From Acidimicrobiaceae bacterium (GTDB taxonomy: Bacteria; Actinomycetota; Acidimicrobiia; Acidimicrobiales; RAAP-2), in contig DAHUYA010000137.1 in NCBI GenBank assembly GCA_027315445.1, forward strand, positions 1 to 48,937: DNA of 48,937 nt. The letters are read 5' to 3'. The position numbers were made by a program, and so were the translations under genes. The notes under the pieces were generated by a model. That model searched no databases, was not told the DNA's origin, and saw only the letters and a program-made list of their open reading frames with translations. Shown here piece by piece: positions 3,599 through 5,780 of the stretch; positions within the stretch are counted from its first letter, which is position 1; every line of letters begins with the position of its first letter.

Positions 3599-4495
3599 GT
3601 GATCGAGCGGGCCCCGTTCGGGCGAACCGGACACCCGAGCAGCCGGGTCATCTTCGGCGCCGCCGCCTTCGCCCGGATCGCCCAGGAACGGGCGGACGAG
3701 GTCCTCCCGGTGCTCGACGCGTTCGGCGTCAACCACCTCGACACCGCCGCCGACTACGGCGACGCCGAGCTTCGCCTGGCGCCGTGGCTCACCGGCAGGC
3801 GGGACGACTTCTTCGTGGCGACCAAGACCGGCGAGCGCACCGGTCCGGGGGCCCGGGCGGCGCTCGAGCGATCGCTCGAGCGCCTCGGCGTGGAAGAGGT
3901 CGACCTCATCCAGCTGCACAACCGGGTCGAGGAGGACGAGTGGGCGAGCGCCCCCGGTCCGGGCGGGGCGGTGGAGGCCCTGGTCCGTGCCCGGGACGAG
4001 GGCCTGACCCGGTTCATCGGGGTCACCGGACACGGCCTGCGGATCGCCGCGATGCACCGTCGGAGCCTCGAGCGGTTCGACTTCGACTCGGTGCTGCTGC
4101 CCTACAACCACTCGCTGCTGACCGACGACCTCTACCGGAGCGAGGTGGAGGCGCTGCTGGCGACCTGCGAGGTCCGCGGGGTGGCCGTGCAGACCATCAA
4201 GGCCGTGGCCCGCCGGCGCTGGCCCGCAGGCTACGAGGGCCCCCGCTTCAGCTGGTACGAGCCGCTCCCCCTGGGCGAGGAGCTGGCGCGGGCGGTCCGG
4301 TTCGTCCTCGGCCGGCCCGGCCCCTTCCTCAACAGTTCGAGCGACCTCCGGCTGCTCCGACCGATCCTCGAGGCGGCCGCCGGGCTCGGGGGATCCGCAG
4401 GGCCCGGGATCCCCGACGACGCCGTGCTGCGCCGCGACACCGAGGCGCTCGGTATCGAACCGCTCTTCGACCGGGCCCGCCTCGAGCGCATCTGA
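3599..4495 (+). CDS. Aldo/keto reductase family protein
   Basis: NHLDTAADYGDAE, VATKTGERT, VDLIQLHN motifs. Confidence 0.92.
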   Translation: MIERAPFGRTGHPSSRVIFGAAAFARIAQERADEVLPVLDAFGVNHLDTAADYGDAELRLAPWLTGRRDDFFVATKTGERTGPGARAALERSLERLGVEEVDLIQLHNRVEEDEWASAPGPGGAVEALVRARDEGLTRFIGVTGHGLRIAAMHRRSLERFDFDSVLLPYNHSLLTDDLYRSEVEALLATCEVRGVAVQTIKAVARRRWPAGYEGPRFSWYEPLPLGEELARAVRFVLGRPGPFLNSSSDLRLLRPILEAAAGLGGSAGPGIPDDAVLRRDTEALGIEPLFDRARLERI

Positions 4496-4630
4496 AGGAT
4501 CGGCACGGCCCTCCCCCGCGACCCGGCCCGCGATCCTTCGGGCTCCCCGGTTCGGCGGAGCGACCTCCACGGACCCGACCATGCTCGGCGCGAGGGGTCA
4601 CCACGACCAGGGACCGGGAACATCTCGACC

Positions 4631-4928
4631 GTCCCCGGTGTTGAACAAATTGGGAAACCCCAGCGAGGTTCCCCAAAGGAGGTGGCAAGGGCATGGTGAG
4701 CCAGTTCTGAGAACCTCCGACCGGGGATCCGGTATCGAGAGGTGCTCCCAAGGCGGGAGGGAGCAGGGCGCAACTAGAGTTGGCGAGCAGCTCGGACAGA
4801 GTTCGGCCCGAGCGTCGCAGCGGAGATTCATCCCGTAAGTGCAGCTACGTAACTCTTGAGTCGGGTTCTCGGGGACAACTGAACAGAGAGCGCTCGGTCG
4901 CCTGCCGGAAGCGGGCCCGGGCGCTTTT
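4631..4928 (+). ncRNA. Candidate structured non-coding RNA (family not identified)
   Basis: No convincing ORF; at least six hairpins (4650-4676, 4678-4718, 4720-4733, 4744-4764, 4771-4782, 4790-4813); possible closing helix GTCCCCG 4631-4637 / CGGGGAC 4870-4876; terminator at 3' end. Confidence 0.55.
4890..4928 (+). terminator. Rho-independent terminator
   Basis: GCGCTCGG ... CCGGGCGC stem (one G-U) followed by TTTT. Confidence 0.6.
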
Positions 4929-4983
4929 CGCGTGTGGGGTTCTCGCGCGCCGGCACCGGCCGGATCAGGTTTCCGGGGCGGGT

Positions 4984-5013
4984 GCCCCACGGGGCCCGAG
5001 AGCCCCGTGGGGC
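4984..5013. terminator. Perfect inverted repeat, likely terminator downstream of hsp20
   Basis: GCCCCACGGGGC-CCGAGA-GCCCCGTGGGGC, 12 bp perfect arms, just past the hsp20 stop. Confidence 0.6.
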
Positions 5014-5019
5014 CGGCCC

Positions 5020-5439
5020 TCAGTGGTGGCTGACCGGGATCTTCGTTGCCGTGGGCTCCGGCTCGGTCGGCCAGGGGACCCGCACCTCGAGGATGCCGTC
5101 CTTGTAGTCCGCCTGGACCGCGTCCTTGTCGACACCCGCCGGTAGCGTGAGCTCGCGGGTGAACTCCCCGTAGCGGAACTCCGAGCGCACCGCGCCCTTT
5201 CCCTTCTGCTCGCTGCGCTCCTCTCGCTTGGCCGAGATGTGCAACATGCCGTCGCTCACCGACACCTCGACGTCCTTGTCGGGGTCGATCCCGGGTATCT
5301 CGGCCCGCACCACGAGGGTGCCGTTCTCCTGTACCTCCTCGACCCGGAGCCAACCCGGCGCCTCCGTCTCGCGCTCGATCCACCGGCGCCACTGCCCCGG
5401 CCAGTCGAGCCCGAACCGCTCCCACCTGGTCAATGCCAT
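5020..5439 (-). CDS. Hsp20/alpha-crystallin family small heat shock protein
   Basis: ACD-type sequence VRAEIPGIDPDKDVEVSVSDGMLHISAKRE and YGEFTRELTLPAGVDKDAVQADYKDGILEVRVP; SD GGAGG before ATG. Confidence 0.93.
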   Translation of the reverse strand: MALTRWERFGLDWPGQWRRWIERETEAPGWLRVEEVQENGTLVVRAEIPGIDPDKDVEVSVSDGMLHISAKREERSEQKGKGAVRSEFRYGEFTRELTLPAGVDKDAVQADYKDGILEVRVPWPTEPEPTATKIPVSHH

Positions 5440-5631
5440 GGCCGTTCCTCCTTCTTGCCCTTCGTGCCCTTCGTGCGACCGGGACGCCCGGTGCGTCCCG
5501 CCGTTCCGGTGCCCCGCAATCCCCCGGCGTACCGCGACGGCAACACCTTCGGCCGCCGTCGACGGCTCACCCGCCGGGCGCGCGAACGGAGTCGCAGTTC
5601 CAGTGTGCGGCCGGGGCAGCGCGACGGGGAA

Positions 5632-5645
5632 GGGACCAACGTCCC
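5632..5645. promoter_or_regulatory. DosR/DevR-box-like palindrome GGGACCAACGTCCC
   Basis: Matches GGGAC-N4-GTCCC core of TTSGGGACTWWAGTCCCSAA; lies between divergent hsp20 and usp. Confidence 0.5.
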
Positions 5646-5710
5646 AAGGTCGACATCCCGAGCCGACCGGGCGCACCCGCGCCCGAGGACATGGCTCCGA
5701 TCGGAAGGCC

Positions 5711-5773
5711 GCCGTGCCCGGTGGGGTACCGCCGTGCCCGGTGGGGTACCGCCGCCGTGCCCGGTGGGGTACC
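5711..5773. repeat. 20-bp tandem repeat x3 (GCCGTGCCCGGTGGGGTACC)
   Basis: Copies at 5711-5730, 5731-5750, 5754-5773. Confidence 0.95.
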
Positions 5774-5780
5774 GCCGCCG

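Follow-up and report, generated by a model that had tools for sequence, protein, structure and literature searches.

A candidate stress-regulon small RNA with a SigH/SigR-type promoter in an Acidimicrobiaceae bacterium

What is encoded in the gap between an aldo/keto reductase (AKR) gene and hsp20 in an Acidimicrobiaceae genome? The window, by which we mean the whole 48,937-nt stretch of DNA that was analyzed (contig C215), belongs to a 2.89-Mb genome of 218 contigs estimated to be 81% complete, and the nearest relatives of its Hsp20 are mostly from Acidimicrobiales. A preliminary description, made from the letters alone, placed in this gap an unassigned multi-hairpin RNA with its own terminator and suggested, from the neighboring stress genes, a link to dormancy. 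Here we report that the + strand very probably carries a genuine RNA gene with its own transcription (~4648-4928), and that its ~280-nt product is probably stand-alone and non-coding. The case rises above chance because of a promoter, a terminator and relatives in other genera; the helices by themselves are weak evidence.

Results

The intergenic region and its promoter

All the segments quoted in the preliminary description were found where it had placed them, and the gap is indeed lower in GC (0.63 vs 0.73 for the whole window). It also lacks a credible ORF: the GC of the longest open frame is flat across codon positions (0.63/0.61/0.68), whereas that of the AKR gene is clearly coding-like (0.78/0.51/0.94). 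The same frame had no match by tblastn, which leaves a protein-coding fragment unsupported, and conserved coding capacity, named beforehand as evidence against an RNA, was not seen, as the three homologous RNAs described below share no frame.

No sigma-70-type promoter was found within 4400-5100. The + strand carries a putative SigH/SigR-type promoter (Table 1), in which GGAACA-N17-GTT at 4617-4642 agrees with GGAAYR-N17,18-GTT, the criterion for promoters of the SigH/SigR regulon. The relevant sections of the published work give GGAAYR-N17-GTT, from 5'-RACE and ChIP-Seq and with 17 as the commonest spacing, as the SigH consensus of M. tuberculosis (PMC4803200), and GGAAT-N18-19-GTT as the SigR consensus of S. 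coelicolor (PMC9205884). The predicted promoter of the window is thus an exact match to the experimentally derived SigH consensus. The strict pattern GGGAAYA-N16,17-GTT has a single match in the window, where 0.05 are expected, and eight genome-wide, vs three for the reversed control; for the relaxed pattern the genome-wide counts are 52 and 18. Placed 6-10 nt past the GTT, the 5' end of the RNA would fall at the base of hairpin 1 (4648-4652).

Table 1. Features of the locus, and SigH-type promoters found elsewhere in the genome
Feature	Position	Strand	Remarks
Aldo/keto reductase gene (AKR, PF00248)	3599-4495	+	Upstream of the RNA and outside it
Putative SigH/SigR-type promoter	4616-4642	+	-35 GGGAACA 4616-4622, 17 nt, -10 GTT 4640-4642
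Proposed RNA, ~280 nt	4648-4928	+	Promoter, terminator, relatives L186 and L187; predicted start
Hairpin 1, TTGGG.AACC/GGTT.CCCAA	4650-4676	+
SD-like box AAAGGAGGTG	4675-4684	+	Directly 3' of hairpin 1; 10-nt perfect complement of the canonical 16S rRNA 3' tail
Hairpin 2, GGAGGT/ACCTCC	4678-4718	+	Sequesters the SD-like box in the predicted fold
Five-codon frame ATGGTGAGCCAGTTCTGA (MVSQF)	4693-4710	+	Ends just before ACCTCC; probably incidental
Multibranched core	4721-4872	+	Closed by 12+7 bp (4721-4732/4861-4872; 4735-4741/4853-4859); MFE and centroid agree
Tail box ACAACTGAACA	4875-4885	+	Consensus ACAAyyGAA; largely unpaired; precedes the terminator
Intrinsic terminator hairpin	4886-4928	+	TTTT 4925-4928; z -2.9 for the piece
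hsp20 (PF00011)	5020-5439	-	Convergent, downstream of the RNA
hsp20 near-match SigH promoter	from 5507	-	GGAACG-N16-GTC; tentative
SigH-type promoter before lon	L174, C91:7820-7846		Relaxed match
SigH-type promoter before trxA	L167, C58:11355-11380		Strict match; 75 nt before the gene
SigH-type promoter before zinc-type dehydrogenase	L090, C157:287-311		Strict match; just before the gene

Other elements were noticed around hsp20. An exact palindrome-like box, GGGACCAACGTCCC (5632-5645), lies between hsp20 and the Usp gene and resembles a DosR/DevR-type site; taken as a whole, the loose DosR/DevR-type pattern shows no enrichment in the window. A tandem repeat of 3.3 copies of a 20-23-nt unit, GCCGTGCCCGGTGGGGTACC, stands upstream of the Usp gene (5708-5780). 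At 5522-5617, a short way upstream of the hsp20 promoter region, ARAGORN called a + strand tRNA-Asp(gtc) of 96 nt, probably falsely, since Rfam gives no support. In a Streptosporangiaceae bin, a ~105-nt element downstream of hsp20 (L021, 2252-2358) has GCGGGAGGGACC/GGTCCCTCCCGC as its closing pair, with a T-rich stretch after it; it has no Rfam match and is dissimilar to the window RNA.

Predicted folding

The predicted fold keeps part of the helix series of the preliminary description. The helices at 4650-4676, 4678-4718 and 4744-4764 are used, and the terminator with its T-tract was confirmed (Table 1). ACCGG/CCGGT and GCTCGG/CCGAGC instead give way to other pairings, among them the long-range 12+7 bp stem that joins 4721-4741 to 4853-4872, the core being predicted to hold a hairpin at 4743-4765 and others. 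Of CAACT/AGTTG, at most CAAC/GTTG is possible, because the full pairing would leave a 2-nt loop. The helix GTCCCCG/CGGGGAC, which had been proposed to close the domain, is excluded because its left arm (4631-4637) lies inside the promoter spacer and so would not be transcribed. Folding from 4648 gives an ensemble diversity of 29, and adding 4631-4647 raises it to 58, a less defined ensemble. Both GTCCCCG/CGGGGAC and the alternative pairing GAGAACC/GGTTCTC were rejected on frequency as well: dividing the squared length by 2 x 4^7 suggests, roughly, that chance alone would supply about two 7-mer complements of this kind in an RNA this long.

By fold stability alone, the window RNA does not stand out (z -1.9 to -2.4; 8.6% of 244 same-length windows of the contig fold equally well), and folding distinguishes neither strand. 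The tail box has a mean unpaired probability of 0.72, and of 0.61 and 0.51 in the two relatives, vs 0.35-0.38 overall.

Database searches and relatives in other genera

The preliminary description could not match the RNA to RNase P, tmRNA, SRP or a known riboswitch, and this held: a search of the window against Rfam 15 gave no match at or above the gathering cut-off. At E <= 10, the interval 4560-4960 gave just noise on the opposite strand and no raiA match. Thus raiA, 6S, tmRNA, RNase P and group II intron are all candidates without Rfam support. A full raiA RNA (RF03072, 139 bits) does occur elsewhere in the genome, upstream of a secA-like start (G000 C125:10359-10610, - strand; L085 2360-2611). 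Searching 150 genomes of the family by blastn returned chance matches inside coding genes only, blastn and tblastn against plasmids and phages gave no real match, and exact patterns had no match in viral contigs. A single-sequence covariance model (R1) recovered itself alone above noise, both in the genomes searched (172 of the family, 397 of the order and 397 of the phylum) and in 80 sources covering the window, hsp20 and raiA loci.

Relatives were found by architecture. We searched the 172 family genomes for the strict promoter with GGAGGTG 18-48 nt downstream, and five genomes matched: that of the window, L183, L184, L186 and L187. The match at L183 lies inside a coding repeat, and that at L184 precedes a sigma-70 family gene. 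The remaining two, L186 (genus g5) and L187 (genus g8), are from other genera of the same family. Their N17 promoter was demanded by the search pattern, as was GGAGGTG within their SD-like boxes of 9 and 8 nt. The features they have in common without any demand of the search are a 5' hairpin, the ACAAyyGAA box, a terminator helix and the length. Beyond the pattern they bear ACAATTGAAGTAAAGCG or ACAACCGAAGTAAAGCG, plus a hairpin between promoter and box; their tail boxes are ACAATTGAAGTAAAG and ACAACCGAAGTAAAG, with ACAAyyGAA absent from the search pattern, and their terminators end in TTTTCGCG or CTTTCGCG. The promoter-to-tail distance is 249 nt in L186, 224 nt in L187 and 258 nt in the window. 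At the site of hairpin 1, L187 has a strong hairpin of 7 bp, the only one of the relatives' to be stabler than its own shuffles, and that of L186 is bulged and weak. Neither L186 nor L187 has a relevant Rfam match.

Global alignment z-scores are 9.5 (window-L186), 6.0 (window-L187) and 8.6 (L186-L187), values reached by 0 of 400 dinucleotide shuffles. When everything up to the SD box is left out they remain at 6.3, 3.6 and 6.3, and five control segments behind SigH-like motifs gave -0.6 to 1.9. The tail and terminator score 6.9 and 5.9 for the window against L186 and L187, and 17 locally for L186-L187. The core sequence appears weakly conserved, at 3.7 for window-L186 and 0.06 for window-L187, where it is mostly not alignable. 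Fold z-scores of the three RNAs are -2.6, -3.4 and -2.6. In the three-sequence alignment, the terminator keeps most of its 17 pairs despite substitutions, which affect both partners in 3 pairs and a single partner in several more; the other helices were not used because the automatic alignment misplaces the 5' part of L187. Homologs were thus missed by blastn and found by architecture, and it is the terminator helix that carries compensatory changes.

The flanking genes differ. L186 has an ArsP-type permease with YHS domains upstream on the same strand and a convergent DUF4333 protein gene downstream, and L187 has a convergent MFS transporter gene downstream. The proximity of hsp20 is incidental because the neighbors are not common to the three loci; a synteny check at hsp20 relatives found the RNA absent, and no such RNA lies downstream of AKR orthologs in six family genomes. 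Among the 171 other family genomes, relatives were seen in 2, which points to a patchy distribution or to fast evolution. Three of 172 genomes is a lower bound, as the search would miss members that lack the SD heptamer or have a looser promoter. Scanning ~1.7 of the 2.4 Mb of G007, from the same genus as L187, gave no further copy, with a single weak match inside a coding gene.

A probable SigH/SigR-like regulon in the genome

The genome encodes a SigH_actino homolog (232.5 bits, E 4e-69) that is probably, not certainly, SigH/SigR because its score is under the curated cut-off of TIGR02947 (251.6). The ORF following it is RsrA-like, with a zf-HC2 domain and HLDRCGPC (HxxxCxxC). trxA and lon are SigR/SigH-type targets. 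SigH-type promoters precede genes that we named trxA and lon by reading their translations, as well as a zinc-type dehydrogenase gene (Table 1), and these promoters would outline the SigH/SigR regulon of the lineage. In the related genus of L184 (G045:C1:177677-177740), a SigH-type promoter stands ahead of the sigma-70 family gene, which suggests a sigma cascade.

Discussion

A probable small RNA of the stress regulon

We regard it as likely, with some reserve, that the locus is an independent trans-acting small-RNA gene of the SigH/SigR regulon, the thiol-oxidative and heat stress response. This reading is supported in the sequence by the promoter, the terminator, the relatives, the lack of a shared reading frame and the convergent downstream gene; what we infer is that the RNA is induced, is stable and acts in trans, as well as where it makes contact and with which targets. 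Having its own promoter and terminator and a non-leader position, the RNA has, as far as sequence evidence goes, what defines a small RNA. Stress would inactivate the RsrA-like anti-sigma factor and release the SigH-like factor, which would transcribe the RNA from the promoter at 4616-4642 until transcription ended at the hairpin finishing at 4928. The product is predicted to fold into a 5' hairpin, a hairpin hiding the SD-like box, the multibranched core, an exposed ACAAyyGAA and the terminator. By analogy with the enterobacterial sigma-E small RNAs, it would most likely pair in trans with mRNAs, and the exposed tail box is the favored candidate contact site because no other unpaired stretch is as well conserved. 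For nine gene starts, among them those of sigH, trxA and hsp20, the duplex energies were no better than those of shuffles.

The central proposal of the preliminary description, a structured RNA that belongs to no assigned family, ends in a terminator and is linked to stress, is upheld by the promoter, the terminator and the negative Rfam search. Its appeal to dormancy, drawn from the neighbors, is not, as the relatives adjoin the ArsP-type permease and DUF4333 genes or the MFS gene, not hsp20. The conserved stress link is, by sequence comparison, the SigH/SigR-type promoter, not the position.

Competing explanations

The SD-like box could start a tiny peptide, which would make the transcript a small mRNA or a dual-function RNA. 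AAAGGAGGTG is a 10-nt perfect SD with an ATG 8 nt on; it is present in a single copy in the 49-kb window, is the only site in the genome with an ATG 4-10 nt on, and was obtained with an ATG in range in 0 of 3000 shuffles, and L187 has GGAGGTGCCATG and a 22-codon frame. However, the three RNAs have no peptide in common (MVSQF, without a counterpart in the relatives; MARPNISKGASRGWSSEPTSLP; none in SD range in L186), the codon-position GC is not coding-like, and the box is mostly paired in all three predicted ensembles (mean unpaired 0.25, 0.28 and 0.13), so we consider a coding role unlikely. The box might instead bind the 16S 3' tail with no reading frame at all, hairpin 2 being opened by stress and the 30S subunit then occupied. 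The SigH-type promoter and the absence of a shared ORF favor this, as does complementarity reaching 3, 2 and 1 nt past the imposed heptamer in the three RNAs. This extension is a hint of selection, not proof of it, as it comes from three sequences and a biased search: conservation of the box is biased because the GGAGGTG heptamer belonged to the search pattern, and hairpin 2 is stable in the window. We judge a ribosome-directed role quite unlikely, and it would be something of a long shot that the family, with its near-perfect, hairpin-hidden SD and no conserved frame, binds 30S subunits once heat or oxidative stress exposes the SD, and so damps translation.

Promoter, SD, small frame and terminator also resemble a 5' leader or attenuator, possibly a decayed one whose gene vanished, but the RNA is not placed as a leader because the downstream gene is convergent at all three loci and none thus has a gene to control; this reading is very unlikely. 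We give an equally slim chance to a 3' UTR of hsp20 with terminators on the - strand, the + strand helices being mirror images. The 4650-4676 inverted repeat is readable as a - strand terminator and the - strand folds equally well by z, but the SigH promoter is on the + strand, as is the T-run of the 4886-4928 hairpin, and the tail and terminator recur, similarly spaced, at loci lacking hsp20. Helices arising by chance in GC-rich intergenic DNA, with no RNA at all, would suit a fold matched by 8.6% of windows, and are nonetheless highly improbable given homologs with z of 6-9.5 and a tail and terminator shared in other genera and contexts.

Significance and comparison with known systems

The small RNA favored here appears to form a new family by Rfam 15 and the literature found, of a known kind, a small RNA driven by a stress sigma factor. 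Enterobacterial examples are classic, whereas for the actinobacterial SigH/SigR response no conserved sigma-driven small RNA was found in the literature searched. A family recognizable by promoter, hairpin, SD-like box, tail box and terminator offers a handle on post-transcriptional control in this response. Such RNAs change too quickly to be picked up by blastn or by a covariance model built from one sequence, and promoter anchoring finds them.

The sigma-E-dependent small RNAs MicA and RybB are much shorter than ~280 nt. Like them (PMC1804206), the window RNA would be an independent, terminator-ended intergenic RNA under an ECF-type stress sigma factor; unlike them, it is ~280 nt, predicted to be multibranched, actinobacterial and linked to a SigH/SigR-like sigma factor. 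It resembles raiA RNA (RF03072) in length, structure and presence in the same genome, but has no raiA score, and this genome carries its raiA on contig C125. The 6S and Ms1-like RNAs are of similar size and abundant in stress or stationary phase; the window RNA differs in being predicted to be multibranched, not a single long hairpin with an open bubble. The SigH/SigR regulon targets described in the relevant sections of two reports are protein genes and one antisense transcript (PMC4803200, PMC9205884). With the SigH/SigR regulon of Mycobacterium and Streptomyces the genome shares the promoter consensus, a probable sigma/anti-sigma pair and the motif at trxA and lon.
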